From positions 1-26,932 of the forward strand of contig QZKU01000086.1 of the NCBI GenBank assembly GCA_003598085.1: a stretch of 26,932 nt of DNA, given 5' to 3'. The stretch is from Candidatus Abyssobacteria bacterium SURF_5. GTDB taxonomy: Bacteria; Abyssobacteria; SURF-5. Numbering within the stretch: position 1 is the stretch's first letter; every line of letters begins with the position of its first letter. The translations under genes and the position numbers were made by a program. Shown here piece by piece: positions 6,209 through 26,866 of this stretch. A model generated the notes under the pieces. The model searched no databases and was not told where the DNA came from. It was given only the letters and a program-made list of their open reading frames with translations.

Positions 6209-6243
6209 TGAATAGCTTTCATAAATTGAACATCATCATTCGA

Positions 6244-6408: not shown

Positions 6409-6409
6409 G

Positions 6410-6423: not shown

Positions 6424-6477
6424 TAGTCTGCTCGTAACCTGAGGCTCGGTCCCCGAAACCCAGTGAGGTGATCACAC

Positions 6478-8232: not shown

Positions 8233-8256
8233 GGACTTAAGAGGGCTTAAGAGTCC
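8233..8256. repeat. Inverted/direct repeat after the radical SAM gene
   Basis: Immediately after the stop codon the sequence can fold as GGAC-TTAAG, loop, CTTAA-GA-GTCC (stem with a two-base bulge). It also contains two direct copies of CTTAAGAG. There is no T-run after it, so terminator function is uncertain. It lies between the radical SAM gene and the downstream tetR. Confidence 0.35.
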
Positions 8257-8399
8257 GGCCGGCTTCGTCAGATTGATCATAAGATAGAGGCTCGAGATTA
8301 TAGGAACTTAGATCTGATGTAGGTCGGGATTGAGATTTCGCGGTCGAGCTATGTTAGCGAATGCACACCGGCTTGCGTCAGAATTGAAGAGACGGAGAA

Positions 8400-9011
8400 A
8401 TGGCGAGAACGCATGCGGCTGAAATAGCGCGTGAGGTGACGAAGAGAGAGCTGCTTGGAGCCGCGCTCGAGGTATTCGTTGCAAAGGGATATCCCGCCGC
8501 CACGATTTCCGATATCGTCCGCGCCGCCGGCGTAACGCAGGGGACGTTCTATCTGTATTTCCAGAACAAAAAAGACATTTTCGCAGTGCTTCTCCAGGAA
8601 TATCGGAAACTGGTGATTTCGGGCCTGTTTAATGTCGACCTCGATTCCGTGCGCACGAAGGAGGATTGGATCGCGCTGGCCAATCGCATTGGCTCTTTTC
8701 TGCTTGACCACATCAAGACACATGGCGACTATATGCGCCTGTTCATCGCCGAGACAACGACAATTGGGTCGAGTTTCCTCAACGAAGCCGATGTCTTTTC
8801 TGGGGCGATAACGGACGAGATCGGACGGCTTCTGCGCCACGGCCTAAAAATGAACCTGCTGAGGGACATAGATGTGAAAAGCGTTAGTCTTTCCTGCCTC
8901 GGTGCGCTTAAAGAGGCCGTTCGACAATCCTGTTTCGGGAATGTTCCAAGTACCGCCGATGAAATTATCCCGCGCATAATCCGCAGCCAGGCGGAACTCC
9001 TGTTGAAGTAG
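8400..9011 (+). CDS. TetR/AcrR-family transcriptional regulator (second)
   Basis: A 203-residue regulator. The helix-turn-helix reads ATISDIVRAAGVTQGTFYLY followed by FQNKKDIFAVLL, a clear TetR signature at about residues 32-62; the C-terminal part is a helical ligand-binding domain. GACGGAG lies just before the ATG. It follows the radical SAM gene by 167 bases in the same direction and may be co-transcribed or have its own weak promoter (TTGATC-17-GATTAT at 8273-8301). It may repress the radical SAM gene through ACTAAC-AC-GTTAGT at 6410-6423. It is not closely similar to the TetR at 5561-6208. Confidence 0.85.
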   Translation: MARTHAAEIAREVTKRELLGAALEVFVAKGYPAATISDIVRAAGVTQGTFYLYFQNKKDIFAVLLQEYRKLVISGLFNVDLDSVRTKEDWIALANRIGSFLLDHIKTHGDYMRLFIAETTTIGSSFLNEADVFSGAITDEIGRLLRHGLKMNLLRDIDVKSVSLSCLGALKEAVRQSCFGNVPSTADEIIPRIIRSQAELLLK

Positions 9012-11331: not shown

Positions 11332-11347
11332 TGGCAGACATGTTGCA
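11332..11347 (+). promoter_or_regulatory. Sigma54 (-24/-12) promoter of the respiratory locus
   Basis: TGGCAGA-CATG-TTGCA matches the sigma54 consensus TGGCACG-N4-TTGCW, with GG (11333-11334) and GC (11345-11346) separated by exactly ten bases. Transcription would start near 11358, about 40 bases before the first gene. The GAFTGA-containing activator in the same locus supports the assignment. Confidence 0.75.
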
Positions 11348-11397: not shown

Positions 11398-12129
11398 ATG
11401 CACCTGATTTTGGCGATTCTGACTTTTGCGGTTTTCATTGGAGTGGGTTTTCTGATTGAGTTCATTAAAGGGAGGACGCTTTCGAAGGCCATTCTTGATG
11501 CCGTTTCCATGGACGATGAGAACCCGAGTGGAAATCCGGCCTACGTTCCGCCTGTTGCGGTGCTTCCCGGACTCACCGGTGCTGCGCCGCGGGTCGAAGG
11601 CTACGCCTTACCGGAAGCCCTCTATTATCACCAGGGCCATTCATGGGTAGCGCCTCAAGGGGCCGATACGGCGATTGTTGGCATCGATGATTTTGCGGGG
11701 AAATTGATTGGAAGCCCCACTTCGATTACCGTGCCGAAGCCGGGCGAAATCTTTCGACAGGGCGAGAAGGGGTGGACCATTAGCCAAAGCGACAAACAGG
11801 TGAAAATGGTATTTCCGGTTGACGGGAAAGTGGTTGCTGTAAATGAAGCAGTGCTAAAGAATCCAACGTTGATTGCGAGCGAGCCGTACGGCAGGGGATG
11901 GCTCTTTATTATCAAGTCGAGAAGCCTTCAGAGAAATCTCCGTAACCTTCTCAGTGGTTCTGTTGCTCGGAGATGGATGGAAGAATCGGCGACGGCATTC
12001 AGAACGATGTTCAGCGGCAAACTTGGAATTGTGTATCAGGACGGCGGTCTGCCGGAGGATGGGCTGGCGGATTACATAAGCGCCAAGGAATGGCGGGAGA
12101 TCACCGGCCGGCTCTTCATGATCGAGTGA
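11398..12129 (+). CDS. Membrane-anchored GcvH-like (lipoyl-fold) protein 1
   Basis: 243 residues. One N-terminal transmembrane helix (about 2-22), followed by basic residues that predict a cytoplasmic C-terminus, then a linker and a glycine-cleavage H-protein-like domain at about 77-173. Landmarks are HSWV, IVGIDDFAGKLIG, VDGKVVAVNEAVLKNP and EPYGRGWLFIIK. In the lipoyl hairpin (SQSDKQVKM) Lys133 lies about where H-protein is lipoylated, though the loop seems one residue shorter. A C-terminal extension with IVYQDGGLPEDGLADY is shared with the next protein and absent from true GcvH. The second ATG of MRAM is chosen because AAGGA is well spaced from it; 11389 is possible. It is the first gene after the sigma54 promoter. 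No glycine-cleavage partner genes are present, so a role as an electron or sulfur carrier is inferred, not shown. Confidence 0.75.
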   Translation: MHLILAILTFAVFIGVGFLIEFIKGRTLSKAILDAVSMDDENPSGNPAYVPPVAVLPGLTGAAPRVEGYALPEALYYHQGHSWVAPQGADTAIVGIDDFAGKLIGSPTSITVPKPGEIFRQGEKGWTISQSDKQVKMVFPVDGKVVAVNEAVLKNPTLIASEPYGRGWLFIIKSRSLQRNLRNLLSGSVARRWMEESATAFRTMFSGKLGIVYQDGGLPEDGLADYISAKEWREITGRLFMIE

Positions 12130-12200
12130 GCGGCTCGGGAGAATGATGAGATGACCCTGAACCATCTGGACAGAGGACAAATAGGAAAAGGAGAAGGGAT

Positions 12201-12959
12201 ATGATTCCCGTCACGCTACCGATCAGCCTTATGATTTTTCTCTTTTTGATTCTCATTGGTTTCTCTTTGTTGCTTTTTGTCGGATCGAGCCACGTGTTTC
12301 ACCTTATCAGGTCACGGGCGCCCCGAAAACGAGGGTTCGAGGGGGCTCAGCAATCTTTATCGGCGCCTTCTCCAGCCGGGGCAGCCGCCGAGGTATCTCG
12401 CGTCGAAGGCTATGTTTTCCCGCACTTTCTCCGCTATCATCGTGGCCACACCTGGGTGGCTTTCAAGGAATCGGGCGAAGCCATTGTCGGCATCGATGAT
12501 TTCGCCGGAAAACTCATTGGCTCTCCAAAAATAATCGCTTCGCCCCGGATAGGGCAGCGCCTGCACCAGGAGGAAAGGGCGTGGATTCTGCGGCGCAAGG
12601 GAAAGGACCTGGAGGTGCAGGCGCCATTGGACGGCGAAGTGGTCGAAGTTAACGAAAGAATTTTCGATAATCCCGGGCTGCTGTCGAAGGATTGCTATGG
12701 AGGCGGATGGCTCGCGGTTATAAAGCCGGCCAACCTCAAAGAGAACATGATGAGACTGCTGAGCGGCGAAGCGGCGAGGCAATGGCTGGAGCAATCGGCA
12801 GCAGAAGTTCGTGCCACGTTCAACCGAGATCTCGGACTTGTATATCAGGATGGCGGGTTGCCCGAAGGAGGGCTCGCCGATTACCTGAACCCTAACGAAT
12901 GGGCCGGGCTGCTTGCGCGTCTTTCAGGGTGCGGCCGGATGAATCCGCCGGCAAATTAG
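12201..12959 (+). CDS. Membrane-anchored GcvH-like (lipoyl-fold) protein 2
   Basis: 252 residues and clearly a paralogue of the preceding protein. It has an N-terminal hydrophobic helix (about 6-28) followed by a strongly basic stretch (RSRAPRKRG), predicting a cytoplasmic domain. The H-protein-like domain is at about 80-175 (HTWV, AIVGIDDFAGKLIG shared with protein 1, LDGEVVEVNERIFDNPGLL). At the lipoyl hairpin (RRKGKDLEV) there are lysines at 133 and 135, with K135 aligning with K133 of protein 1. The C-terminal extension GLVYQDGGLPEGGLADYL is nearly the same as in protein 1. AAGGAG precedes the ATG. It lies 71 bases after gene 1. Whether it is lipoylated is open. Confidence 0.75.
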   Translation: MIPVTLPISLMIFLFLILIGFSLLLFVGSSHVFHLIRSRAPRKRGFEGAQQSLSAPSPAGAAAEVSRVEGYVFPHFLRYHRGHTWVAFKESGEAIVGIDDFAGKLIGSPKIIASPRIGQRLHQEERAWILRRKGKDLEVQAPLDGEVVEVNERIFDNPGLLSKDCYGGGWLAVIKPANLKENMMRLLSGEAARQWLEQSAAEVRATFNRDLGLVYQDGGLPEGGLADYLNPNEWAGLLARLSGCGRMNPPAN

Positions 12960-12984
12960 AAGATCGGGAAAGGAGAGAGGAGAG

Positions 12985-13692
12985 ATGGTTCCTATAGCTA
13001 TTGCAGGCATTATCCTGGCGTTTCTGGTCATCGACGTGATCATCCAAACGGTCCAGCACAGAAGAGGCAGGCGCGTACACGGCTTCTTTATACCGGATCC
13101 AGCCGATGAAGTTTCGCCTCCCGTCGACTATGGCAGGATGCTCGACTGCCTGAAGAGGTTCGGCATTGCGCCGCCGCACAACGCATTCGTTCATAGCGGC
13201 CACATTTGGGCCGCCGTCGAGCAATCAGGCGAAGCGGTTGTCGGACTGGATTCATTTGTGAAAAGAGTAATTGGAAAAGTGGACGCAGTCGAGCTGCCCC
13301 GCGTAGGGCAGGCGGTGCACCAGGGAGAACGGTTGATGGCGGTGCACCGGGGAAATCGAATTGCCGAATTCGTTGCTCCCGTCGATGGGGTTATCACTGA
13401 AGTCAAAGAAGTGCCAGCCCCGGTCTCCGATTTAGGAGGAACCGACTGGATTTGCAGGATCAAGCCGAGCAATTTATCGGCGAATCTGAAGGTGCTGCGC
13501 ATTGCTGAAGACGCCGTGAAATGGATGTATGAAGAACTTTTCCGGTTGCACGAGCTGGTTGCCGCGCAGATTCCGAGGCTGCAGACTGTCGGCGTGACGA
13601 TGCAGGACGGCGCTCTCGCCCTGGATAATGTGCTTCAGACGCTTGACGAGGACGCGTGGAACCAGTTTCAGCGGCAATTTCTGAAGAGCTAA
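12985..13692 (+). CDS. Membrane-anchored GcvH-like protein 3, lipoyl site lost
   Basis: 235 residues, a more distant third paralogue. An N-terminal transmembrane helix (about 4-22) is followed by HRRGRR, again predicting a cytoplasmic domain. The H-protein-like part (about 70-160) keeps HIWA, AVVGLDSFVKRVIGKV and APVDGVITEVKE. The hairpin reads HRGNRIAEF, with Arg125 where proteins 1 and 2 have Lys, so it probably cannot be lipoylated. The C-terminal extension keeps VTMQDGAL in shortened form. GGAGAG sites precede the ATG, 25 bases after gene 2. It is followed within 16 bases by the Fe-S protein gene, suggesting a structural or docking role in the same complex. Confidence 0.7.
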   Translation: MVPIAIAGIILAFLVIDVIIQTVQHRRGRRVHGFFIPDPADEVSPPVDYGRMLDCLKRFGIAPPHNAFVHSGHIWAAVEQSGEAVVGLDSFVKRVIGKVDAVELPRVGQAVHQGERLMAVHRGNRIAEFVAPVDGVITEVKEVPAPVSDLGGTDWICRIKPSNLSANLKVLRIAEDAVKWMYEELFRLHELVAAQIPRLQTVGVTMQDGALALDNVLQTLDEDAWNQFQRQFLKS

Positions 13693-13708: not shown

Positions 13709-14509
13709 ATGAGCAAAGGAATGCTGATCGATACAACGTTGTGTGTGGGTTGCTGCATGTGTGAAGAAGCGTGCAACGAGAAAAATGACCTGCCGAAATG
13801 TGATGAGTCAGATCTCTCGGCCTGCAAATTCACCAAAGTTTTCGAGCGGGGCGACTACTACGTGCGAAAGATGTGCATGCATTGCGAAGAGCCCGCCTGC
13901 GCATCGGTCTGTCCCGTCGGCGCATTGAAAAAGCTGAAGGAAGGGCCCGTCATTTATTACGAAAAAAAATGCATCGGGTGCAGATACTGCATGCAAGCAT
14001 GCCCGTTCCAGATTCCGACGTATGAATGGGCGAGCGCTTTTCCGCGGGTGAGAAAATGCTGGTTCTGCTATGACCGGGTGATGGCGGGCAGTCAACCGGC
14101 GTGTGCCGAAGCCTGTCCGACCGGAGCCACCAAATTCGGCGACCGCAAAGAACTGGTGGTTGAAGCCCGGAAGAGAATCGCCGAGAACCCTGATCAATAT
14201 CATTCGCATATTTTTGGCGAACACGAAGTGGGGGGGACCTCGATGCTCTATCTGGCTGCAGTTCCCTTCGGGCGGATTGGCTTCAAATCGAACCTGATCG
14301 AAAAGCCGCTCCCGCTCTTGACGTGGAATGTCCTCTCAAAGATCCCCGATTTTGTGCTGGTCGGCGGTACGCTGCTTGGGGGAGTCGCATGGATCATCAA
14401 CCGGCGCATCATTCTGCAGGACGAGCGCATTGAGGAAGCTGAACGGAAGCGGAACGCGGGCGAGCCAACAACTCGTTCCGGGTTCTTCGGACGATTTGGG
14501 AAGAAATAG
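13709..14509 (+). CDS. Four-cluster [4Fe-4S] ferredoxin-like subunit with C-terminal membrane anchor (module A)
   Basis: 266 residues, resembling HybA/DsrO/NrfC-type electron-transfer subunits. Four cysteine groups are visible: CVGCCMCEEAC (12-22), CMHCEEPACASVCP, CIGCRYCMQACP, and CWFC paired with CAEACP. Near 210-230 is a hydrophobic helix (DFVLVGGTLLGGVAWII), followed by a charged tail. There is no N-terminal Tat or Sec signal. Either the Fe-S domain is cytoplasmic or it is exported as a passenger of another Tat substrate; no such partner lies next to it. GGAGG precedes the ATG. The next gene encodes an NrfD-type membrane subunit, so the pair should pass electrons between a donor and the quinone pool. 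Confidence 0.85.
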   Translation: MSKGMLIDTTLCVGCCMCEEACNEKNDLPKCDESDLSACKFTKVFERGDYYVRKMCMHCEEPACASVCPVGALKKLKEGPVIYYEKKCIGCRYCMQACPFQIPTYEWASAFPRVRKCWFCYDRVMAGSQPACAEACPTGATKFGDRKELVVEARKRIAENPDQYHSHIFGEHEVGGTSMLYLAAVPFGRIGFKSNLIEKPLPLLTWNVLSKIPDFVLVGGTLLGGVAWIINRRIILQDERIEEAERKRNAGEPTTRSGFFGRFGKK

Positions 14510-14564: not shown

Positions 14565-15746
14565 ATGAATCGCAAATGGATACCGAAGATAACTTTTTGG
14601 AGATGTGTATTCGCGCTGATATTCCTGATGGGCTTATACGTCAGTTATATTCGCTTCTTCAAGGGCCTGGGAGCATCAACGAATCTGAATGACAAGGTTC
14701 CATGGGGCCTGTGGGTTGGTTTCGACGTTCTGTGCGGTGTCGGCTTGGCAGCCGGTGGATTCACCATCACCCTCGTAGTTCATCTGTTCAACATGAAGAA
14801 ATACAAGCCCATAGTGCCGTCCACTGTATTGAGCGCGTTTCTGGGATACAATCTTGTGAGCGCCGGATTAATGTACGACATTGGTCGTCCGTACCGCATC
14901 TGGCATCCCATGAGGTTCTGGAATCACCATTCAGTCATGTTCGAGGTGGCGTTGTGCGTCATGATGTACACGACCGTGCTCGCGCTTGAGTTCAGCCCGA
15001 TGATTTTCAAACGCTTGAAATGGGAGAAACCATTGCGGATCGTGAAGTCGATAACCATTCCTTTGGTTATTGCCGGATTCATTCTCTCGACGCTTCATCA
15101 ATCTTCTCTGGGGACTGTTTTCCTTATTGTCCCCGGAAGGCTGCACCAGTTATGGTATACGCCGATACTGCCGCTGATGTTCATTACATCCGCCATTGCG
15201 GCCGGCCTTTCCATGGTGATTGTGGAGTCCTACATCAGCCGGCGCGCCTTCAATAAACGCCTGGAACTGGACTTGCTGGCGGGAGTGGGGCGGGCTGTTC
15301 TGGTTGTTCTCGCGGTATACTGCGTGCTCAAGGTGAAGGATTTGTTTAACCGCGACGCAATCGAGCTCCTCTTCGACGGCAGTCACGAGAGCAAAATGTT
15401 TCTTCTGGAAATGGGATTGGGAGTGGCGGCTCCGCTGGGGATGCTGGCGGTCAGCAGAATCCGCGAGACCCAGAGCGGCTTGTTCATCTCTTCGGTGATG
15501 GTCGTCACCGGATTTGTAATCAATAGGTTAAATGTGAGCATCACCGGTATGATCAGTTCATCCGGGGTCAAGTATTTCCCTTCGTGGATGGAAATTGGAG
15601 CGACTGTTTTCCTGGTTGCAATGGGATTTGCGCTGTTTGGAGCGGCTGTTAAATACCTGCCGGTATTCCCGGAGGAAACCGAGCAGGAAACAGAAGAGTC
15701 CCTGCGGTACCTTGTTCCGGAGAGGCGCCCGGTCATGACGCCGTAA
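14565..15746 (+). CDS. NrfD/HybB-family quinone-interacting membrane subunit (module A)
   Basis: 393 residues with about ten hydrophobic segments over most of the length and a short charged C-terminal tail. The ATG at 14565 is chosen over an upstream in-frame GTG at 14328 because GGCGGAAGAG precedes it and the upstream part would overlap the Fe-S gene without membrane character. It shares landmark motifs with the second NrfD protein at 22857: HSVMFE (HSMLTE there), LHQSSLG (FHQGSLG) and VINRL (VINRF). This class of protein binds menaquinone and accepts electrons from a partner Fe-S subunit. It pairs with the preceding Fe-S gene, 55 bases upstream. No molybdopterin or haem catalytic subunit is linked directly to this pair. 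Confidence 0.85.
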   Translation: MNRKWIPKITFWRCVFALIFLMGLYVSYIRFFKGLGASTNLNDKVPWGLWVGFDVLCGVGLAAGGFTITLVVHLFNMKKYKPIVPSTVLSAFLGYNLVSAGLMYDIGRPYRIWHPMRFWNHHSVMFEVALCVMMYTTVLALEFSPMIFKRLKWEKPLRIVKSITIPLVIAGFILSTLHQSSLGTVFLIVPGRLHQLWYTPILPLMFITSAIAAGLSMVIVESYISRRAFNKRLELDLLAGVGRAVLVVLAVYCVLKVKDLFNRDAIELLFDGSHESKMFLLEMGLGVAAPLGMLAVSRIRETQSGLFISSVMVVTGFVINRLNVSITGMISSSGVKYFPSWMEIGATVFLVAMGFALFGAAVKYLPVFPEETEQETEESLRYLVPERRPVMTP

Positions 15747-15964: not shown

Positions 15965-17644
15965 ATGAGCCTCGTCACAAAATTGTTCAGCGTCTCGAAC
16001 AGCCTCGCCGTTAAACTCATTGTTTGCGTGGTCGGAAGTGTTGTGCTCATTTTCGGCGTGTTCGGGTATATCAACGTGCAAAACAGCAGGCGGCACCTGG
16101 AAGGGCTCGTTCTAACGAGCGCGCAGGGAGTTGGAGACATCGTCAAGCGCAGCACACGCCTCTCAATGCTGCGCAATGGCAGGGATGAGCTATATCACAT
16201 GATCAAGCAGATCGGCAACGAACCCGGCATCAGGCGCATCCGCATCCTGAACAAGGAGGGCAAGATTACCTTTTCCACTGACGAAAACGAAGTGAATACC
16301 TTCGTCGACAAGAAAGCCGAAGCCTGCTATGCCTGCCACACGTACGAACAACCGCTGGTCAAGCTATCGCGTCCCGACCGCGCGCGCATTTTCCGCGAGA
16401 ACGGCGGAGAAAGGCTGCTGGGACTCATCCAGCCGATCGAAAACGAACCCGATTGCTATACGGCTCCGTGTCATGTGCATTCCGAGACGAAGAAAGTGCT
16501 GGGAGTATTCGATATCAACTTGTCTTTGGCGAAAGTGGACGAAAATATCTCGCAGTATCAAAGGAATATCGCGCTGAACCTGCTTGTAGTCATGATTGCC
16601 GTCTCGGGAGTGTCGGCGGGATTTGTGTGGCTCATGATCTACGGGCCGGTAAAGAAGCTCATCATGGGGACGAAGCGCATCGCGATGGGGGACATGGATT
16701 ACGTCATCGAAACGAAATCCGTTGATGAACTGGGACTGCTTGCGCTCTCTTTCAATAAAATGACGCGCGACCTCAAGAAAGCGCAGGACGAGATAACCGA
16801 ATGGACGAAAACGCTCGAGGATCGCGTCGCCATGAAGACGAATGAGCTGCAAAAGGCGAACGACCTGATCCTGCAGGCCGAGAAGCTGGCCTCGATCGGG
16901 CGCCTGGCGGCCATCGTGGCTCATGAGCTGAATAATCCGTTGGCAGGCATTGTTGCCTATTCAAAGCTTCTCCTCAAGAGAATGGACAACAACACGTTTT
17001 CAGAAAGCAGCTACGCCAAGAGCAGGGAGATCATCACCATGATGATGCGCGAAGCCTTGCGCTGCGGCGACATCGTCAAGAATCTGCTCCAGTTCTCGCG
17101 GCAGTCCGATTTGATGTTTGCTTCTGAAGATATTTGCGTGATAATCCGGGAGTCGGTCCGCCTCGTCGAGCACCTCGTGACTATCCGTAATATTGAGCTT
17201 CAGTTCGAGTTGAGCGAGGGCATCCCCGCAGTGAGCTGCGACTCCCAGAAAATCAAACAGGTTCTGCTTGCGTTGCTGATTAATGCCTGCGATGCAGTCG
17301 CCGAAGACGGCGTTGTCAGGGTCGGCTGTCGGTGGCTGGCGGCTGTGAAGGCGGTAGAGATTTCCGTGCAGGATAACGGAATAGGGATGGAGGAGGAGAC
17401 GTTGCGCCACATTTTCGAGCCTTTTTTCACCACGAAAGAAGAGGGAAACGGGGTAGGACTCGGATTGGCTGTGGCTCATTCGATTGTCGAGAGGCATGGC
17501 GGCGCCATTTCGGTCAAGAGCGTTGTCAATGAGGGTACCGAATTTAAGATAACTCTGCCGATAGCGCCCGCGCACAAGAACGAGCATTCCATTGTGGGGA
17601 CCGAAGATGCGGCCGGCTTCGGAGAAGGTGATCTGCTGCCATGA
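15965..17644 (+). CDS. Sensor histidine kinase with periplasmic c-type haem motifs
   Basis: 559 residues. TM1 is at about 15-36 and TM2 at about 202-226; between them is a periplasmic domain of ~165 residues with a CXXCH haem motif (CYACH, 121-125) and a CX4CH motif (C164, C169, H170). After TM2 come a HAMP linker (about 227-275), a coiled-coil stretch, the HisKA H-box with phospho-acceptor His320 (VAHELNNPLAGI), N-box Asn440, G1 DNGIGM (470-475), FEPFFTTK and G2 GVGLGLAV. The start at 15965 follows AAGGCGG; a start 90 bases upstream adds non-membrane sequence. The stop overlaps the next start (ATGA), so it is translationally coupled to the 11-haem cytochrome. Covalent haem suggests sensing of redox state, NO, CO or a similar ligand. 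The sigma54 response regulator at 25490 is the likely partner. Confidence 0.88.
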   Translation: MSLVTKLFSVSNSLAVKLIVCVVGSVVLIFGVFGYINVQNSRRHLEGLVLTSAQGVGDIVKRSTRLSMLRNGRDELYHMIKQIGNEPGIRRIRILNKEGKITFSTDENEVNTFVDKKAEACYACHTYEQPLVKLSRPDRARIFRENGGERLLGLIQPIENEPDCYTAPCHVHSETKKVLGVFDINLSLAKVDENISQYQRNIALNLLVVMIAVSGVSAGFVWLMIYGPVKKLIMGTKRIAMGDMDYVIETKSVDELGLLALSFNKMTRDLKKAQDEITEWTKTLEDRVAMKTNELQKANDLILQAEKLASIGRLAAIVAHELNNPLAGIVAYSKLLLKRMDNNTFSESSYAKSREIITMMMREALRCGDIVKNLLQFSRQSDLMFASEDICVIIRESVRLVEHLVTIRNIELQFELSEGIPAVSCDSQKIKQVLLALLINACDAVAEDGVVRVGCRWLAAVKAVEISVQDNGIGMEEETLRHIFEPFFTTKEEGNGVGLGLAVAHSIVERHGGAISVKSVVNEGTEFKITLPIAPAHKNEHSIVGTEDAAGFGEGDLLP

Positions 17645-18939
17645 GAGGACGTATTATTTGGGCGGTGCTTAGTTTGGCAATATGGCTTGCGCCGGCGAAC
17701 GTTTTTTCGGCGGCGCCGGCCCGTCCTTCGGAAGATCAGGCTTGTCTCGAGTGTCATGCGGACGAGGCGGTAGCACGGAAGAACCTGGTATTCGTTGATC
17801 CGACTGTCTTTGCCAACTCGATACACGGGCGTCTCCAGTGCACCGATTGCCATGCAGATGCCGTCGAAAAGGACAACAATCCGCATCCACGCGAATTGGC
17901 TAAGGTGAACTGCCCCTCTTGTCACTACAAGGGAAATCCGGAGGGGGCTCCCAATTTCACTCCGATGCAGCAGTACAAGACCAGCGTGCACGGGCGGGCC
18001 TCCGAGAGTGGCGATCAGGATGTGGCGACATGCTCTGCCTGCCATGGAAAACACAATATCAAGCCCGCGTCAGATCCCGAGTCCACGATAAACCGCCTCA
18101 ACATACCCCGGACCTGCGCAGTCTGCCACGACAATATGCAGATGGTATTGAAGCATAATATCCATGCCGAGCAACCATACAGCGAATACGAACAGAGCGT
18201 TCACGGGAAGGCGCTTTTTCAAGACGGAGTGGCGAGCATGGCGGCGGTGTGCACTGATTGTCATGGCGTTCATGACATTCAGGCCAACGGCGATGCCGAT
18301 CTGAAACCGCATCAGCCGGCGACCTGCGGAAAATGTCATCAAGTCGAATACAACATCTACAGCGGCAGCATTCATGGCGAGGCTTTTCAGCAGGGTGTCC
18401 TGGACGTGCCGGTTTGCAGCGACTGCCATGGCGAGCATACGATAGCGGCTCCATGGAACCCGGAGTCTTCGGTTTCTGCATTCAAAGTAACTTACACCTG
18501 CGCCGGTTGTCATGATGATGTGACGCGGATGAGCAAGTACAATATCCTTACCAATAAGGTCTCAACCTTCAAACAGAGCGATCATGGGGTGGGAAATGAC
18601 TTGGGAATCGTAGCCGTCGCCACATGCGTCAGTTGTCATGGATATCATGATATTCTGCCGGCGAATAATCCCGCATCGTCCATTCATTTGTCACAGTTTG
18701 AAAAAACGTGCGGCAAAGCGAATTGTCATCCGGATCCTTCGCCCGAAATCCTCTCGGCCCACATTCACGTGGATGGCACTGATCAGAATTTTGAGAATCT
18801 GCGCCGCATCAGAACCATTGCACTCTGGTCGATTGGAGCCTTGGCCGGATTCGGTGTAGCCGCGGGCCTGTTGGCGTTCGCATTGCGTATCGGACAGAAC
18901 TTTGAGCGACCTTCCGGCCGCGGTGAAAATGGAGAGTAG
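17641..18939 (+). CDS. Membrane-anchored multihaem (about 11 haems) cytochrome c
   Basis: 432 residues with a Sec signal peptide (about 1-24), ten CXXCH motifs (CLECH, CTDCH, CPSCH, CSACH, CAVCH, CTDCH, CGKCH, CSDCH, CAGCH, CVSCH), and a final CX4CH motif (CGKANCH). Many are followed by GxH or HGxH patterns that could supply distal histidines. A C-terminal transmembrane helix lies at about 393-418, followed by a basic and charged tail. It should therefore be a periplasmic electron carrier tethered to the inner membrane. Its ATG lies inside the last codons of the sensor kinase gene. It precedes the Qrc-like module and may be its electron donor or acceptor, or a quinol-oxidising conduit. The internal spacing suggests repeated units, as in cytochrome c3/c7-type proteins. 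Confidence 0.85.
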   Translation: MRGRIIWAVLSLAIWLAPANVFSAAPARPSEDQACLECHADEAVARKNLVFVDPTVFANSIHGRLQCTDCHADAVEKDNNPHPRELAKVNCPSCHYKGNPEGAPNFTPMQQYKTSVHGRASESGDQDVATCSACHGKHNIKPASDPESTINRLNIPRTCAVCHDNMQMVLKHNIHAEQPYSEYEQSVHGKALFQDGVASMAAVCTDCHGVHDIQANGDADLKPHQPATCGKCHQVEYNIYSGSIHGEAFQQGVLDVPVCSDCHGEHTIAAPWNPESSVSAFKVTYTCAGCHDDVTRMSKYNILTNKVSTFKQSDHGVGNDLGIVAVATCVSCHGYHDILPANNPASSIHLSQFEKTCGKANCHPDPSPEILSAHIHVDGTDQNFENLRRIRTIALWSIGALAGFGVAAGLLAFALRIGQNFERPSGRGENGE

Positions 18940-19014
18940 AATCGGCGTCGCGCCGCCGTTCCTTAAAGAATGTGAAGAGTGCGGCTCCTGATAGGGGACA
19001 CGAGGATAGTCCGG

Positions 19015-19647
19015 ATGAGAAACTTCAAGAGGCGTAAAGATTCGACGATCATACTGCTGATCTTTCTGTCGGGGTTTGTTCTCTTCCATTTCGCGGGCAA
19101 GTTTGCGGCGCCCTTGCTGGTGTATGACCGCCAGAAGCAGCCGGTCGGATTTAATCATGCCAAACATGGGGACGACGTCGGAGTTTCTTGCGATACATGT
19201 CATTTCTTTTACGATGACGGCAGTTGGTCGGGAATACCGAAGATGGAGGTCTGCGCGAACTGCCATAGCGAAGTCCTTGGAGAGTCGGAAGAAGAAAAGA
19301 AGCTGGTGATGGATTTCATTCAGCAGAACAGGGAAGTCGAGTGGGGCCTGTATTTCCGGCAGCCTCAATGCGTCTCGTTTTCACATTCGTCTCATGTGCG
19401 CGGAGCAAAACTTTCGTGCGAGACCTGCCATGGACCGCAGGGGCTCTCTCGGAGCGCCGTCGAGTACCTTACCAACAGGATTACGAAGTATAGCTATGTT
19501 GTTTATGATACCGATGTATCACTAACGCTGAACACCGTTATCGGGAAGAAAGAGAAGAACATTTGGGGCACTATGGGAATGGATGAATGCGCCGCCTGCC
19601 ACCGCGCCAGAGGAACAAGCACGGCATGTTTTATCTGCCATAAGTAA
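19015..19647 (+). CDS. qrcA: Pentahaem cytochrome c subunit, QrcA/ActA-like
   Basis: 210 residues. One N-terminal hydrophobic helix (about 11-32, probably an uncleaved anchor) is followed by a class III-like cytochrome with five CXXCH motifs: CDTCH, CANCH, CETCH, CAACH and CFICH. The FNHAKH and FSHSSH segments provide typical bis-His ligands. The ATG at 19015 is chosen because GAGG lies 9 bases upstream; a GTG at 18979 is less likely. It is followed in order by a molybdopterin-fold subunit, an Fe-S subunit and an NrfD subunit, the gene order of Qrc (menaquinone reductase) in sulfate reducers. Qrc cytochromes are described with six haems, whereas ActA of alternative complex III has five. The assignment to Qrc is therefore by architecture, not by exact identity. 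Confidence 0.75.
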   Translation: MRNFKRRKDSTIILLIFLSGFVLFHFAGKFAAPLLVYDRQKQPVGFNHAKHGDDVGVSCDTCHFFYDDGSWSGIPKMEVCANCHSEVLGESEEEKKLVMDFIQQNREVEWGLYFRQPQCVSFSHSSHVRGAKLSCETCHGPQGLSRSAVEYLTNRITKYSYVVYDTDVSLTLNTVIGKKEKNIWGTMGMDECAACHRARGTSTACFICHK

Positions 19648-19681
19648 TGCTGTTGATTTTCATTTTGGGGGAACGATAAAC

Positions 19682-22054
19682 ATGAAGATAAATCGCAAGT
19701 CGTTTCTCAAGGCGCTTGCATTTGCCGGGGGAGGAACTATGGGGCTGATGACGTCTCCCGCCCCCTGGCATCTCACAAGGGATCTGGCCCGATGGACGCA
19801 GAATTGGCCGTGGGTGCCGGCGCCGGCCCAAGGAAAGCCTTCTCAAGTCAATAGTATTTGCGGCATGTGCAGCGGAGGCTGCGGGATAATAGTCAGAAAA
19901 GTTGACGAGCGGATGGTGCGCGTAGAGGGAAACAAGCGCCATCCCGTGAACCGGGGCTTCATCTGCCCCATAGGGATCTCGTCGCTTCAGATGGTCTATG
20001 GACCGGCGCGCGTCCGGCAGCCGCTCCGGCGCGCGGGTTCGCGCGGGGAAGGCAAATGGGAGGAGCTTTCGTGGGAAGAGGCAATCGCTGAATTCGCGGA
20101 TTCTATTAAGAAGCGCCGGTCCGCCGCGCAATCGCACGCGATCGCCTGTTTCACGAATAGCGCCGACGGAACAACCAATGAACTGCTTGATCGTTTCCTC
20201 AAGGCGATCGGTTCCCGAAATCTTGTGAAACTGGATTCTGGCAAGGATGCAAGAGCCGCTTTGATGAAAGTTATGCAGGGTATTGATGCGTTGCCCGCGT
20301 ACGATTTTGAGGGGGCGGATTTTCTCCTCAGTTTCGGGTGCTCTTTGCTTGAAGGATGGGGCACCTGCGGCCGGATGTATGGCGCCGTCGACTCATGGTA
20401 CAGGGAGCGAGCCCGACCGGTGGAACTCGTACAGATTGAATCCAATTTCTCAACTACGGCTTCAAAAGCCGCGAAATGGATCCCGATTGCCCCGGGCACC
20501 GAAGCCGCGCTGGCCATGGGAATCGCTCACGTGATGATAAGCGAAGGCTCGTACGACCAAGCATTCGTGAGCAAACACTGCTTTGGATTCGAAGATTGGA
20601 AGGACGACGCCGGAAAGATGCACCGCGGTTTCAAGTCGCTGGTGCTTGGCGAGTATTCTCCTCCCGCCGTTGAAAAAATAACCGGCGTGTCTGTCAAGGA
20701 TATTGAAATGCTCGGACATCGGTTCGCCGTTTCGGAACATCCTCTGGCCGTCGGAGGAGGCGGCAGGGGAGATCATTTCAACGGCATCTATGAACTGATG
20801 GCGATTCACAGCCTAAACGCTCTGGCCGGCAATATAAACAAGACGGGTGGCGTATTGGTGAAATCATCCGTGCCCCTGAATCCTCTGCCTGATGTTCTGA
20901 TGGACGAGGAAGCGGCGCGCGGATATGCGGCGGGCGCGCTTGATGGAACCGGCAAAGGATCTTCTCTTGCAGCGGCGCTTCCGGGCGTGAACGATGCCGC
21001 CTTACAATTGCTCATCGTGCACGAATCCAACCCGCTTTACTCGCTGCCCGAGCAGCAACTGGCTGCTCGCCTCTTTGAGAAGATCCCTTATATCGTAAGC
21101 CTTTCCTCTTACATGGATGAGAGCGCCGCCCATGCCGACCTGGTTCTTCCCTTATCGACACGTCTGGAGCGGTGGGACGATCAATTGGCTGCGCCCGAAC
21201 TGCAGTATGCCGTCTATAATCTGAACCGTCCCGTCGTCGCCCCACTTTACACAACGAGAAGCGCGGGCGATATCGTGATCGAGACCGCGAAGAAACTGGG
21301 TGGGACAATCGCCGAGTCGTTTCGCTGGGCGAACATGCAGGAGGTGTTGCGGGAGCGCGCACACGGGCTGTTTGAGTCGGGAAGAGGCGTCATTGATTCG
21401 CCGGACCTCCATGCAATTGAGGGGGATGCGCAATTTGGTGAGCCGTCATATTCTTCCTTTTCGGAGATGTGGGACAAGTTGCAGCAGCAGAATTGCTGGT
21501 TCGATACCGCTTACAACTATGGCGATCTACGAAATATTCTGAAAACGCCGAGCGGCAAATTCGAGTTTTACAGCCGGACCCTGCAGTCGATGTTTGGTAT
21601 CGAAGACGACGAGAAATACATGCCGCATTACGAAAAGCCCGATAATCAGCCAAAGGGCTTTGATGTGGCTATCATGACTGAGGATATGCTGCTCATGGGT
21701 GACGACGGCAAAGGGACTCCGCCTTTCCTCATGAAGCAGCTCGACGAGAACGTGCTGAAGGAGAACGACCTGTTCGTCCAAATCAATCCTATAACGGCGA
21801 TGTACCACGATCTCGCGGAGGGGGACCGCGTGGTTCTTGAATCTCCAGCCGCAAAGGTTCACGTGAGACTGCACCTGTACGAGGGAGTGCGCGAGGGGGT
21901 CGTGCTGATCAGGCTTGGCTTCGGTCACACAGCTTTTGACAAATTTCTCCGGGGCAAGGGAGTGAATGCGAAACGGTTGCTTGTCGTCAAAAAAGACAGC
22001 ATAACAGGGTTGCCTCTGTGGCGAATAACACCGGGAAAGATAGTCAAGACGTGA
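19682..22054 (+). CDS. qrcB: Molybdopterin-oxidoreductase-fold subunit, QrcB-like
   Basis: 790 residues. The N-terminus (NRKSFLK, then a hydrophobic stretch) is a Tat-type signal with Lys in place of the second Arg. A [4Fe-4S] site follows (C60, C63, C67 and C95 in GFICPIG), then the large molybdopterin-oxidoreductase domains and a C-terminal molydopterin-binding-type barrel (about 660-790). In Qrc and alternative complex III the equivalent subunit has lost molybdenum cofactor and acts as a structural and electron-transfer part; whether that holds here I cannot tell, since no obvious Cys/Sec/Ser ligand motif stands out. The ATG at 19682 follows GGGGGAAC; an upstream ATG at 19583 would run inside the previous gene. 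It should be periplasmic, next to its Fe-S subunit (8-base gap). A true polysulfide, tetrathionate or formate enzyme is the alternative. Confidence 0.78.
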   Translation: MKINRKSFLKALAFAGGGTMGLMTSPAPWHLTRDLARWTQNWPWVPAPAQGKPSQVNSICGMCSGGCGIIVRKVDERMVRVEGNKRHPVNRGFICPIGISSLQMVYGPARVRQPLRRAGSRGEGKWEELSWEEAIAEFADSIKKRRSAAQSHAIACFTNSADGTTNELLDRFLKAIGSRNLVKLDSGKDARAALMKVMQGIDALPAYDFEGADFLLSFGCSLLEGWGTCGRMYGAVDSWYRERARPVELVQIESNFSTTASKAAKWIPIAPGTEAALAMGIAHVMISEGSYDQAFVSKHCFGFEDWKDDAGKMHRGFKSLVLGEYSPPAVEKITGVSVKDIEMLGHRFAVSEHPLAVGGGGRGDHFNGIYELMAIHSLNALAGNINKTGGVLVKSSVPLNPLPDVLMDEEAARGYAAGALDGTGKGSSLAAALPGVNDAALQLLIVHESNPLYSLPEQQLAARLFEKIPYIVSLSSYMDESAAHADLVLPLSTRLERWDDQLAAPELQYAVYNLNRPVVAPLYTTRSAGDIVIETAKKLGGTIAESFRWANMQEVLRERAHGLFESGRGVIDSPDLHAIEGDAQFGEPSYSSFSEMWDKLQQQNCWFDTAYNYGDLRNILKTPSGKFEFYSRTLQSMFGIEDDEKYMPHYEKPDNQPKGFDVAIMTEDMLLMGDDGKGTPPFLMKQLDENVLKENDLFVQINPITAMYHDLAEGDRVVLESPAAKVHVRLHLYEGVREGVVLIRLGFGHTAFDKFLRGKGVNAKRLLVVKKDSITGLPLWRITPGKIVKT

Positions 22055-22062
22055 GGAAGGCG

Positions 22063-22827
22063 ATGGAAGTATCCCAGAAGACACAGGTCCGGTATGGAAT
22101 GACAATAGATGTGGACATGTGCACGGGCTGCGGCAATTGCGCCGTCGCCTGTCATATGGAAAACAACGTACCGTTCCGCCCGGATGAAAGCGATAAGTCC
22201 CGCAACATGGCGTGGCTGAGAATCTATAGGGTCACTAATGGAGCCGAGTATCCGAACATACGCGTGGCCTATTTCCCGCGTCCCTGCATGCAGTGCGACC
22301 GCCACACCCCGTGCGTGTCGGTTTGTCCCGCCAGTGCCACCAACTACGACAAGAGCACCGGATTAGTGGACCAGATCAACACGCGCTGCATCGGGTGCCG
22401 CTATTGTATGGCAGCCTGTCCGTACATGGTGCGCTGTTTCAACTGGTGGGATCCGGTGTGGCCGGCCGACATGAAACTTTATTTAAATCCCGATGTTGCC
22501 CCCAGAATGAGGGGCGTCGTTGAAAAATGTACCTTCTGCTCCCATCGCTATATTAAAGTAAAAGATCTCGCCCATCAGCAGGGAAGGGCCAAGCTGGAAA
22601 AGAACGAATATGTGCCGGCCTGCGTTGAGGCTTGTCCGGTGGGGGCAATGCAGTTCGGAGATTTGAATGATCCTGAGCATGAGGTGAGCCGCCTGGTAAA
22701 GTCGCCTCGCGCGTTCCGGCTGCTTGAGCGATTGCACAGCGAGCCGAAAGTTTATTATCTGAGTTCGCATGACTGGATAAAACGATGGTCTGATAATAAC
22801 GCCGCCGGTGTTCATTCCGCCCATTAG
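22063..22827 (+). CDS. qrcC: Four-cluster Fe-S subunit, QrcC/NrfC-like
   Basis: 254 residues with four cysteine groups: CTGCGNCAVAC, CMQCDRHTPCVSVCP, CIGCRYCMAACP, and CTFC paired further on with CVEACP. This is the ferredoxin subunit architecture of PsrB, NrfC and QrcC. The ATG at 22063 follows GAGGAAGG; an in-frame GTG at 22018 lies inside the previous gene. It has no signal peptide or membrane anchor, as expected for a subunit carried across the membrane with its Tat-exported partner, here the QrcB-like protein. It should relay electrons between the QrcB-like subunit or cytochrome and the NrfD-type membrane subunit encoded next. Confidence 0.85.
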   Translation: MEVSQKTQVRYGMTIDVDMCTGCGNCAVACHMENNVPFRPDESDKSRNMAWLRIYRVTNGAEYPNIRVAYFPRPCMQCDRHTPCVSVCPASATNYDKSTGLVDQINTRCIGCRYCMAACPYMVRCFNWWDPVWPADMKLYLNPDVAPRMRGVVEKCTFCSHRYIKVKDLAHQQGRAKLEKNEYVPACVEACPVGAMQFGDLNDPEHEVSRLVKSPRAFRLLERLHSEPKVYYLSSHDWIKRWSDNNAAGVHSAH

Positions 22828-22856
22828 CCGCGGTTAGGGGAAAGTAAAGGATCAAG

Positions 22857-24155
22857 ATGAGTTCGACACAAAGTCTGCCTGAGCTGGAAAGATGTTCGTC
22901 AAGAAAATTCTTTCTGTGGCTGTTCCCATGGGTTTTGCTGCTTCTGTGGGGCGTGTATGGCGCGTTCATCTGTCTGTTCAAGGGGCTGAATCAGACGGGG
23001 ATGAACAATTATTTTGTTTTCGGCCTGTGGATCAGCGTCGATCTCGCCGTTATCGCATTGGGGGCCGGCGCCTTTTTCGGCGGGTTTCTCTACTATGTGC
23101 TGGGGATGAAGCCGCTTCGGGAACTGATCGGCGCCGCGGTCGTGATAGGGTTTATCTGTTACAGCGGCGCCATCGGGATGCTCACGATTGACATCGGCCA
23201 ACCCTTGCGCGGGTATTTCAGCTTCTGGCACGCAAACGTCCACTCGATGTTGACGGAAGTTATTTTTTGTATCACGATATATCTGTTCGTCCTTTCCATT
23301 GAATTCTTGCCCCTGATCACTGAAAACGAGAAAGTGCGGCAGATCCCTCTGCTGAGACGTTTGGGCGAGCACCTTCATGAAATCATGGTCGTTTTCGCTT
23401 TGGTCGGGACCTTTCTGTCTTTCTTCCATCAGGGGTCTTTGGGAGGCATGTTCGGTGTCCTGTACGCGCGTCCCTTCGCTTCCCGAGCGGGCGTTGCAAT
23501 TTGGCCGTGGACGTTCTTCTTGTTCATCCTTTCGGCAATCGCCTCGGGACCAGCGCTCACTACCCTGGTTGTATGGACTACGCAGAAAGTAACCGGACGA
23601 AAACTCGTCAGCCGCTCTACTCTGTCGCGGTTGGCCTGGATTTCGGCGGTTCTGCTCGTTGTGTACCTCGCTTTCAAGGCAGCGGACACGATTTACTGGG
23701 CCAATGTCACCGCTCCCCAAAAAGGATTCACATTCGCCGATTTCTACCGGGCTCCATACGGGATGTGGCTGCTTTTCTCGGAACTCTATATATTCGGCCT
23801 GGTTCCCGCGATCATCTTGCTGATGCCGAAGGCGAGAAACAATGACTTTTGGCTTGTAACCGGCTGCCTGTTTACCTGTTTTGGGGTTGTAATTAACAGG
23901 TTTACGACCACGGTGCAATCGCTTGCGGTTCCCGTGCTGCCGTTTGAGAAGTTCGTCGTCTACACGCCAACCTGGCAGGAATGGGCCGTGGTCGCGGCAA
24001 TTCTCGGGTATGGCGTGATTCTCTATTCGTTCGCATACCGATATCTGCATTTGTTTCCGCGGGAATCGGAATTGAACGCGGAGCCTGCAGAGGAAGAAGA
24101 GGTGGAAATATGTGGCCGACAATATTTGAATTCAGTTGGGACACGGGCCATATGA
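22857..24155 (+). CDS. qrcD: NrfD-family quinone-interacting membrane subunit, QrcD-like
   Basis: 432 residues with about ten transmembrane segments, flanked by a short polar N-terminus and an acidic C-terminus (EPAEEEEVE). Landmarks shared with the module A homologue are HSMLTE, FHQGSLG and VINRF. In this family conserved His/Glu or His/Asp residues in the fourth helix lie at the quinone site and a proton path. AAGGATC precedes the ATG. It completes the A-B-C-D order of the Qrc-like module. Its 3' end overlaps a 59-codon membrane protein gene in another frame. Confidence 0.85.
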   Translation: MSSTQSLPELERCSSRKFFLWLFPWVLLLLWGVYGAFICLFKGLNQTGMNNYFVFGLWISVDLAVIALGAGAFFGGFLYYVLGMKPLRELIGAAVVIGFICYSGAIGMLTIDIGQPLRGYFSFWHANVHSMLTEVIFCITIYLFVLSIEFLPLITENEKVRQIPLLRRLGEHLHEIMVVFALVGTFLSFFHQGSLGGMFGVLYARPFASRAGVAIWPWTFFLFILSAIASGPALTTLVVWTTQKVTGRKLVSRSTLSRLAWISAVLLVVYLAFKAADTIYWANVTAPQKGFTFADFYRAPYGMWLLFSELYIFGLVPAIILLMPKARNNDFWLVTGCLFTCFGVVINRFTTTVQSLAVPVLPFEKFVVYTPTWQEWAVVAAILGYGVILYSFAYRYLHLFPRESELNAEPAEEEEVEICGRQYLNSVGTRAI

Positions 24156-24355: not shown

Positions 24356-25402
24356 ATGGGTACTAAAAGCATGGCAGCTGCGGCATTTTTTGCTTTCGTC
24401 ATCATTGCAGTTTCAATGCCGGCGGTCGCAGAGGACACTACGGTCGAGGCAAAGCAGGCAGAAGAATGCATCTATGTGGGAGTCAAGAAGTGTGCTTTCT
24501 GTCATGTCCGCCTCGATAATTCGCTGAAGACGTGGGCGATCACGAAGCACGCGCACGCCCTCAGCGCTCTTCGCACCGCTGAGGCAAAAAAGTATTCCAA
24601 ACATCCGGATGAGGACCCAAAGTGCCTGAAGTGCCACATGACCGGGACCGCCTTCGATCCCATAATCGCGGAACAGGCCGGCAGTGAACACGATCTTGAC
24701 GGTGTCCAGTGCGAGATGTGTCATGGGCCGGGAAACCTTTACAGAAGTGAAATGGCGCGCGCGCTGCCGAAAACTCATTCTCTGGACGAGCAGGAATGCA
24801 CGCGGCGAGGGCTGATTGTTCCGACGGAGAAGACCTGCCGCAAATGTCATAATGAGGAATGCCCTGTGTATCATGGTTTCAATTTTGAAGAAGCCGTCAA
24901 GATGATCAAACACGGCAAGACGGAAACCAAATGCCAGTATATCGGGCAGGAAAAGTGCACGTTCTGTCATGTGAAAACCGACGAGGCGGAACCCTCATGG
25001 GTCATTCTTAAGCACATTAACGCTTTTTCTGTTCTTAAGACGCCGCTGGCGCGCAAGTTCTCAAAGGACCCCGTCCACGATGAGACGTGTCTCGAATGCC
25101 ACTCCACCGGCTTGAATGCCCCTGGCGGATACAAAATGAATGATCCGGCAAGCGAGAAACTCGAAGGAGTGCAGTGCGAGATGTGCCACGGCTGGGGATA
25201 CAGCTACGTTGAAGCCATGGCGAAGGCAAAAGTCCTCGATATCTGCGACTGTAGAGACGAGTGCGTCCATAAGGGGCTTGTCCTTCCGGACAAGAAAGTA
25301 TGCGTTCGCTGTCATAACGAGCGATGCCCGGTGTTTGTGGGCTTCGACTTCGAAGCGAGTCTGAAGCAGATTCAGCATGGGAAATTTTTTAAGAAGCATT
25401 GA
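24356..25402 (+). CDS. Octahaem cytochrome c made of two tetrahaem repeats (c554-like)
   Basis: 348 residues: Sec signal peptide (about 1-25), then two homologous units of ~155 residues. Unit 1 (about 38-190) carries CAFCH, CLKCH, CEMCH and CRKCH; unit 2 (about 193-345) carries CTFCH, CLECH, CEMCH and CVRCH. Matching landmarks are CIYVGVKKC/CQYIGQEKC, GVQCEMCHG in both, and CHNEECPV/CHNERCPV at the ends. Each unit resembles the cytochrome c554-type tetrahaem family. Extra cysteines in the repeats (for example CDCRDEC in unit 2 only) are unusual. AGGAGG lies 9 bases before the ATG. It has no C-terminal anchor, so it is a soluble periplasmic carrier, a candidate partner of the Qrc-like module. 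Confidence 0.85.
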   Translation: MGTKSMAAAAFFAFVIIAVSMPAVAEDTTVEAKQAEECIYVGVKKCAFCHVRLDNSLKTWAITKHAHALSALRTAEAKKYSKHPDEDPKCLKCHMTGTAFDPIIAEQAGSEHDLDGVQCEMCHGPGNLYRSEMARALPKTHSLDEQECTRRGLIVPTEKTCRKCHNEECPVYHGFNFEEAVKMIKHGKTETKCQYIGQEKCTFCHVKTDEAEPSWVILKHINAFSVLKTPLARKFSKDPVHDETCLECHSTGLNAPGGYKMNDPASEKLEGVQCEMCHGWGYSYVEAMAKAKVLDICDCRDECVHKGLVLPDKKVCVRCHNERCPVFVGFDFEASLKQIQHGKFFKKH

Positions 25403-25489: not shown

Positions 25490-26866
25490 ATGATGGAAAA
25501 AGATAATGTTCGAATCCTGATCGTTGATGACGAGCAAATCGTTGTCAGGTCGCTTTCCGATTGGTTTCGCGACGACGGATATTCCGTTGGAACGGCTTCG
25601 ACCGCAAAGGAGGCGCTCGCAAAATTGACGGAGAGGGAGTGGGACATTTATCTTCTCGACGTGAAGATGCCGGGTATGAGCGGGCTCGAGCTTCAAAAGA
25701 AGATCAGGGAAATCAACCCGGACAGCATCATCATCATCATGACCGCCTACGCCTCGGTCGACTCTGCAGTGGAAGCCCTGAAGCAGGGGGCCTATGATTA
25801 TCTCACCAAGCCGTTTGACCCTGAGCACCTGGGGCATCTCATAAGAAATGCTCTTGAAAAGAAAACGCTTGCCGTTGAGAATTCGAGGCTGAAACAGAGT
25901 ATCGACGAGTCTGTCCTCAGTCATAATATCATCGGCGCCAGCGAAGGCATAAAGAAGGTCATCGAATCAATAGAAACGGTTTCCAACACCGAGACCTCCG
26001 TTCTTATTCGCGGCGAAAGCGGAACCGGTAAGGAACTAGTTGCCAAGGCTATCCATTCCAACAGCCGCCGCCGCTATATGCCGATGATCATCCTTAACTG
26101 CGGCGCCCTCGCCGAGAGCATCCTTGAAAGCGAACTGTTTGGCCACGAGAAAGGGGCCTTCACCGGCGCTCAATACAAGCGCAAAGGGAAATTCGAACTT
26201 GCGGACGGCGGAACTCTCTTTCTTGACGAAATCGGTGATATCAGTCAGAAAATGCAGATGGACCTGCTGCGTGTTCTCGATGAAAAAAAGATCAGGCGAA
26301 TCGGCGGGGAAAAAGAGATCGCCGTTGATTTTCGGCTGATCGCCGCCACGAATAAGGATCTTGAGGCGGCTGTCGAGGCCGGCGTCTTTCGCTCTGATCT
26401 TTACTACCGCCTGAACGTCTTCTCGGTGACGATTCCGCCGCTGCGGCAGCGCCCGTCGGACATTCCCCTGCTGGCGGAACACTTCCTGAAGAAGTACGCC
26501 CAGACCACAAACAAGCACATCGAGAAAATAGCTGATGAAGCGCTGGAAAAACTGACGGGCTACACCTGGCCGGGCAACGTGCGTGAGCTGGAGAACGCGA
26601 TAGAGCGCGCCGTGGTGGTCTGCAAATCCGATTGCATCAAGGAAGAACATTTCCCGTTTAGCGCCTCCAGGCCGAATCATACTCCAATTGGGCGCTCGCT
26701 GGAAGACATGGAGCAAGAGCATATTTTCAACACCCTTACAGAAACTCAATGGAATATCACGCAAACCGCCCGGCTGCTGAACATCGACCGGGTGACGCTG
26801 TATAGGAAAATCAAGAAATACAAATTAAAAAAGAAAAGTAGCTCCTCACAAGAATTTGTGGGTTAA
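25490..26866 (+). CDS. NtrC-family sigma54-dependent response regulator
   Basis: 458 residues with three domains. The receiver (about 7-120) has acidic residues D13/D14, phospho-acceptor D57 (LLDVKMPGMSG), a conserved Thr in MTAYAS and Lys in LTKPFD. The AAA+ activator domain (about 145-385) has Walker A GESGTGKE, the sigma54-contact loop GAFTGA (intact) and Walker B GGTLFLDEIGDI. The C-terminal Fis-type helix-turn-helix (about 425-450) reads WNITQTARLLNIDRVTLYRK. AGGA lies 5 bases before the first ATG; the second ATG (25493) is possible. It closes the respiratory locus 87 bases after the cytochrome. With the haem-bearing kinase at 15965 and the sigma54 promoter at 11332, it forms a complete regulatory circuit. 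Bases 26867-26932, after it, show nothing further. Confidence 0.93.
   Translation: MMEKDNVRILIVDDEQIVVRSLSDWFRDDGYSVGTASTAKEALAKLTEREWDIYLLDVKMPGMSGLELQKKIREINPDSIIIIMTAYASVDSAVEALKQGAYDYLTKPFDPEHLGHLIRNALEKKTLAVENSRLKQSIDESVLSHNIIGASEGIKKVIESIETVSNTETSVLIRGESGTGKELVAKAIHSNSRRRYMPMIILNCGALAESILESELFGHEKGAFTGAQYKRKGKFELADGGTLFLDEIGDISQKMQMDLLRVLDEKKIRRIGGEKEIAVDFRLIAATNKDLEAAVEAGVFRSDLYYRLNVFSVTIPPLRQRPSDIPLLAEHFLKKYAQTTNKHIEKIADEALEKLTGYTWPGNVRELENAIERAVVVCKSDCIKEEHFPFSASRPNHTPIGRSLEDMEQEHIFNTLTETQWNITQTARLLNIDRVTLYRKIKKYKLKKKSSSSQEFVG

Follow-up and report, generated by a model that had tools for sequence, protein, structure and literature searches.

The ligases of lipoyl domains need a lysine exactly at the tip of a hairpin, and in GcvH, the H-protein of the glycine cleavage system, this lysine lies in an ESxK hairpin. 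A GcvH-like protein outside glycine cleavage is already known in LbpA; its lysine is strictly conserved and, apart from some archaeal members, it has two conserved cysteines, one towards each terminus (PMC6067878). Among the membrane complexes, the closest described systems are the Desulfovibrio Hmc complex (HmcABCDEF; PMC10924467, PMC4215793) and the Tat-dependent modules of a tail-anchored Fe-S protein and a HybB-like quinol oxidase, of which a signal-less variant is described as well; no conserved flanking genes are reported for the cytochrome-linked pair, and a GcvH-like gene is unmentioned (PMC10924467). As for the archaemetzincins (Peptidase M54), very little is known about their biological importance (PMC3427221). 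Here we describe a locus that encodes GcvH-like and Hmc-like proteins.

Gene order at the locus

The window, that is the whole stretch of 26,932 nucleotides analysed here, is contig QZKU01000086.1 of Candidatus Abyssobacteria bacterium SURF_5 and carries the following features.

11332..11347, + strand: sigma-54 (-24/-12)-like promoter TGGCAGACATGTTGCA, about 50 bp before the first start codon
11398..12129, + strand: GcvH-like protein 1, 243 aa; transmembrane anchor, GcvH fold at about 70-200, QDGG extension
12201..12959, + strand: GcvH-like protein 2, 252 aa; paralogue of protein 1
12985..13692, + strand: GcvH-like protein 3, 235 aa; QDGA; N124/R125 at the hairpin tip
13709..14509, + strand: HmcB/HybA-like 4Fe-4S protein; C-terminal tail anchor, without Tat signal
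14565..15746, + strand: HmcC/HybB-like NrfD quinone-binding membrane protein; Pfam NrfD 110 bits
15962..17644, + strand: sensor histidine kinase; HisKA/HATPase/HAMP
17641..18939, + strand: multihaem cytochrome c; about ten CxxCH motifs (ten, counted by eye)
18979..24155, + strand: QrcABCD-type menaquinone reductase block, by NCBIfam/Pfam
24356..25402, + strand: multihaem cytochrome; CxxCH motifs
25490..26866, + strand: sigma-54-dependent response regulator; receiver, GESGTG and GAFTGA motifs

The start at 11398 was preferred over an upstream GTG at 11308, because the sigma-54-like site lies between the two; this site is the top-scoring one among the plus-strand sigma-54-like sites listed for the window. 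For the products of 13709..14509 and 14565..15746 the best NCBIfam matches are HmcB (247 bits, cut-off 420) and HmcC (328 bits, cut-off 550), which makes the Hmc subunits their best named matches at scores below the equivalog cut-offs. The histidine kinase bears CxxCH and Cx4CH motifs at 122 and 165, in its predicted periplasmic part, and its phospho-acceptor motif is HELNNP. Compared with Hmc, neither a 16-haem HmcA nor a cytochrome b HmcE nor HmcF was recognised among the operon ORFs or the Pfam/NCBIfam matches, and where Hmc has rrf1/rrf2, the module described below has GcvH-like domains, a haem kinase, a sigma-54 regulator and an archaemetzincin. The two-protein core is like that of the Tat-dependent Fe-S/HybB-like modules.

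A reading made from the sequence alone had placed the three GcvH-like proteins at the head of a respiratory operon. They do head the block, but the block is better described as two units, namely a module of GcvH-like proteins, HmcB, HmcC, histidine kinase, cytochrome and response regulator, and a QrcABCD block lying inside it. This block was recognised in NCBIfam by QrcA (187 bits, cut-off 180), QrcB (470, cut-off 440) and, just below the threshold, QrcC (389, cut-off 400), while the fourth gene matches Pfam NrfD. Only in the window genome is it placed within the module, between cytochrome and regulator; in genome G001 the regulator follows directly after the cytochrome, and G002 has its Qrc genes ahead of the module, on the upstream side. 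The M54 gene of the module is not visible in the window because the contig ends 66 bp past the regulator, and the only archaemetzincin detected in the window genome (G000) lies on another contig (C135:16986-17366, L246), next to a cytochrome b-like gene. In another part of the window (4197-9011), we read from the sequence an acyl-CoA dehydrogenase, two TetR-type regulators and a B12-type radical SAM protein, which look unrelated to the module.

Fold, lipoyl position and membrane anchor

The three ORFs proved to be paralogues as first read, each with one N-terminal hydrophobic helix followed by basic residues and each with a QDG motif within a C-terminal extension that has no counterpart in canonical GcvH. 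Their H-protein-like domain is borne out by Pfam GCV_H, with 73, 80 and 53 bits for copies 1, 2 and 3 (cut-off 22.2), as well as by AlphaFold2 models of copies 1 and 3, built with six sequences each and confident over the domain: the model of copy 1 matches the pea H-protein with Z 19.1 and 1.4 A over 131 residues, and that of copy 3 matches solved H-proteins with Z 13.7 and 2.2 A over 121 residues. The core motifs HxW, PxxG and DPYGxGW are also common to both, so that in fold and core motifs these proteins and GcvH are alike; in contrast to GcvH, the window proteins are without the lipoyl lysine and add the membrane anchor and the DGG/W extension. With NCBIfam gcvH they score 71, 71 and 45 bits, below the curated cut-off of 115.85. 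The pattern of the extension (W, G, DGG, W) is kept across the alignment of 168 relatives, and since it is conserved there and missing from canonical GcvH, the GcvH-like proteins form a separate family. We saw neither gcvP nor gcvT nor lpd in the window, as had been noted before, and the true gcvH of the genome is found with gcvT and two gcvP genes on another contig (C56); the proposal of a GcvH fold outside glycine cleavage is supported. A phage-family scan of copy 1 gave no match.

The idea that these proteins are lipoylated carriers fared differently. In the alignment the lipoyl-lysine column is occupied by D132 in copy 1, G134 in copy 2 and N124 in copy 3, and according to the full alignment, from which all these conservation counts are taken, a lysine stands there in 12 of the 168 relatives and is absent in the other 156. 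The position after it is basic in 100 of the 168 (Lys 48, Arg 52). K133 of copy 1 and K135 of copy 2, which the sequence-only reading had proposed to check for lipoylation, are these neighbours and miss the lipoyl position by one residue, while copy 3 carries Arg at this place; lipoylation at K133/K135 was rejected on these grounds, and as far as the sequences tell, it is unlikely that the window proteins are lipoylated carriers. Membership in the LbpA family, which that reading had named as a precedent, was rejected because of the missing lysine and cysteines. Both are GcvH-like outside glycine cleavage, and some relatives of our family adjoin Hdr-like genes, but LbpA keeps the lysine and, in most members, the cysteine pair, whereas the window proteins have neither: copy 1 contains no cysteine, and copies 2 and 3 have theirs at different places. 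Moreover, no sHdr genes and no dedicated lipoate ligase were recognised among the window ORFs.

Copies 1 and 2 are 44% identical, and in the tree they join only copies of the same phylum (support 1.0), inside a wider membrane-type clade (0.97), while copy 3 falls in a different clade (0.99) that is common to Desulfobacterota and Acidobacteriota. Judged from this tree, copies 1 and 2 arose by a recent duplication within the phylum of the window, and copy 3 belongs to an old separate clade. This placement suggests that two kinds of GcvH-like protein per module are probably the older state, and that the third copy came by later duplication.

In 46 of 58 proteins the charges on either side of the anchor speak for a cytoplasmic GcvH domain, the wider flank of copy 1 being not clearly positive, and the domain probably lies on the cytoplasmic side, in agreement with the membrane-tethered arrangement supposed at first. 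The HmcB-type Fe-S subunit carries a Tat-like signal (RR motif) in 43 of 54 related loci. Such a signal would bring the Fe-S protein to the periplasm, so that a cytoplasmic GcvH domain could not hand electrons over to it directly, and direct transfer as a general rule is weakened by these signals. The periplasmic placement applies where the signal is present. Comparison of N-termini with the relatives revealed no Tat signal in HmcB of the window's clade, the window protein beginning at the first cluster motif, and in this clade HmcB might lie on either side of the membrane, because a signal-less relative is suggested to hitch-hike through Tat with a partner (PMC10924467). As to the anchor itself, 8 of 21 membrane-type family proteins were hit there by the HmcD model, with a best E of 5e-7; these matches stay below the curated cut-off (34 bits). 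The likeness to HmcD was seen in several relatives, and for the window's three GcvH-like proteins no NCBIfam match to HmcD was reported.

A conserved module in three phyla

Our comparison revealed a conserved module in which one to four GcvH-like proteins are encoded together with HmcB and HmcC, with a histidine kinase of the haem type and a sigma-54 response regulator, and with an archaemetzincin, the last being a member of the M54 family (PMC3427221). The module recurs in Desulfobacterota and Acidobacteriota, one represented by a Desulfobacula MAG and the other by an Acidobacteriaceae MAG, which were taken as members of these phyla, and in all three genomes of the window's small phylum. In these three genomes the order is three GcvH-like genes, then HmcB, HmcC, kinase, cytochrome and regulator, the multihaem cytochrome c of the 17641..18939 type being part of the module in each; in G001 and G002 the archaemetzincin follows directly after the regulator.

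Module genes in the relatives were located by six-frame profile searches of the regions. GcvH-like genes adjoin HmcB/HmcC in 54 loci across the three phyla; the linkage to the Fe-S/NrfD pair drawn from the window by the sequence-only reading is close and widespread. The two-component genes and the archaemetzincin, which that reading did not foresee, are constant companions: the 54 regions contain a kinase in 43 cases, a regulator in 41 and M54 in 42, and for the 34 module regions of at least 15 kb the numbers are 31, 29 and 28. Twenty control loci with HmcBC and without GcvH gave M54 in 0/20 and weak kinase matches, none above 265 bits, and in 20 random stretches GcvH-like genes, HmcB, HmcC and M54 were all 0/20. 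An independent Pfam search of 395 genomes, only 146 of which have any M54, placed M54 within 10 kb of 61 of 103 GcvH clusters. Considering that the profiles were built from module members and that the loci were chosen best-hit-first and are related, these counts describe an association and not independent events.

Sigma-54-like sites were found ahead of the GcvH-HmcBC block in 25 of 50 related loci, compared with 40 of 1000 control stretches (4%). A loose sigma-54 pattern searched across the whole window is not enriched over shuffles; only the comparison of upstream regions is informative for these sites.

The family extends beyond the module. Some Acidobacteriota copies have no module gene nearby (L007, L219, L222, L225 and L232), and 29 GcvH-like regions have no HmcBC beside them; kinase, regulator and M54 still occur in such regions, M54 in 18 of the 29. 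Family members of the non-membrane type occur with kinase, regulator and M54 beside Fe-S or flavin enzymes and often have a Cys-rich N-terminus. For example, the proteins of about 310-370 aa in L036, L098 and L099 carry an N-terminal pattern close to C-x12-C-x5-C-x2-C twice, possibly a metal or Fe-S site, and this Cys-rich part has no Pfam match. In two Acidobacteriota loci (L237 and L238) a GcvH-like protein of about 376 aa stands beside the HmcBC pair and a haem-type kinase, with regulator and M54 not detected there; matched ORFs of similar size were seen in several related genomes.

Besides the stand-alone proteins, several fusions were observed. In the window genome (L027:9459-10244, contig C48) and in L028 and L029, one protein combines a receiver with a GcvH-like domain; its gene adjoins those of a histidine kinase and of a kinase-like protein and lies downstream of dsrMKJOP-like genes, an arrangement found in all three genomes of the phylum; the dsr identity is our reading of the sequences. 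In G035 (L243:6233-7585, contig C1), one ORF joins receiver, GcvH-like and HdrC-type Fe-S domains. The array to which it belongs also encodes receiver-GcvH proteins, receiver-STAS-like proteins, a haem-type kinase and a sigma-54 regulator, and it contains genes like HdrB and HdrA. At L095:9604-12522, L096:7136-10102 and L102:5652-9047 the GcvH-like domain stands at the C-terminus of a large flavin or Fe-S protein resembling HdrA/FlpD, the fusion being Pfam-checked in L095 only.

In the open-access literature, no description was found of GcvH with NrfD, Hmc, archaemetzincin, receiver or HdrA, nor, in the literature searched, of an archaemetzincin linked to a respiratory or two-component gene set. 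The module is widespread and, it appears, undescribed, and for the make-up of the window, for which no described complex had been known at the outset, no published counterpart was found in this literature.

Docking, signalling and carrier readings

The fold, the missing lysine, the conserved neighbourhood, the sigma-54-like sites and the domain fusions were established by computation, whereas we infer that these proteins belong to the complex, that they dock partners, on which side of the membrane they do so, in which direction electrons flow and what the protease does. In the simplest reading, to which we give an even chance, an Hmc-type quinone complex would bear the GcvH-like proteins on its cytoplasmic face as docking subunits with a GcvH fold and without lipoylation. 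A single helix beside HmcC would tie each of them to the membrane, and since the anchor helix in Desulfobacterota resembles HmcD, the small Hmc membrane subunit, an HmcD-type subunit seems to have gained the GcvH domain. The H-protein surface and the basic hairpin tip would then dock soluble cytoplasmic partners, which may be the co-encoded Cys-rich GcvH proteins and elsewhere the receiver-GcvH and Hdr-GcvH proteins. The haem-type kinase and the sigma-54 regulator would turn the operon on through the -24/-12 promoter, and the archaemetzincin would probably trim or turn over one member of the assembly; that its substrates are the GcvH-like proteins with their conserved DGG stretch is a speculation. 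Against docking it counts that sigma-54 control alone could account for the linkage to the regulator.

In the main rival the GcvH-like proteins would not be stoichiometric subunits but would serve the two-component system as its sensing or output arm: they would signal to kinase and regulator how oxidised or reduced the quinone complex is, or be released by archaemetzincin cleavage. The receiver-GcvH proteins, which adjoin their own kinase and have no DNA-binding domain, speak for it, as do the regions that keep the two-component genes and M54 without HmcBC; but the membrane-type copies adjoin HmcBC, several with an HmcD-like anchor, and the fusions with HdrC and with HdrA-like proteins suggest that the domain sits on the enzyme, and we regard signalling as a serious though doubtful explanation. 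Docking and signalling may both hold. The proposal from which this study set out, that lipoylated carriers pass reducing equivalents or sulfur to the Fe-S/NrfD pair, could appeal to the H-protein fold, to LbpA as a precedent (PMC6067878) and to the lysine that copies 1 and 2 have directly beside the lipoyl site; it has become improbable, however, with the lipoyl lysine absent in all three copies and in nearly all relatives, no conserved cysteine pair, and an Fe-S partner that mostly bears a Tat-like signal. Still less credit can be given to the variant that the off-by-one basic residue (K133/K135) bears another cofactor or acyl group. The position is indeed often basic, but arginine, which cannot take an amide-linked lipoyl- or biotinyl-type cofactor, is more frequent there than lysine and is the residue of copy 3. 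That ordinary duplicated GcvH proteins stand near respiratory genes by chance is hardly conceivable in spite of the clear H-protein homology, being already contradicted by the scores below the NCBIfam gcvH cut-off, by the true gcvH elsewhere in the genome and by a neighbourhood conserved across three phyla.

Starting again from docking, a wider proposal can be made tentatively, one that we think could hold but do not expect to. The non-lipoylated GcvH fold might have been recruited quite generally to link two-component signalling to anaerobic redox complexes (HmcBC, DsrMKJOP and Hdr-type) by docking. It would be carried by the complex, by the receiver domain, or by both, of which the receiver-GcvH-HdrC fusion is an example, and archaemetzincin would be the dedicated processing protease. 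If true, this would mean a protein-level phosphorelay control of respiration and would give bacterial M54 proteases a defined role.

In a more practical respect, many genes in Desulfobacterota and Acidobacteriota are probably mislabelled as 'glycine cleavage system H protein', and the module gives archaemetzincins concrete candidate partners. That a carrier fold lacking the site for its cofactor accompanies a quinone complex, a haem sensor and a protease in many anaerobes suggests that respiratory electron flow is subject to a further, unrecognised level of control.
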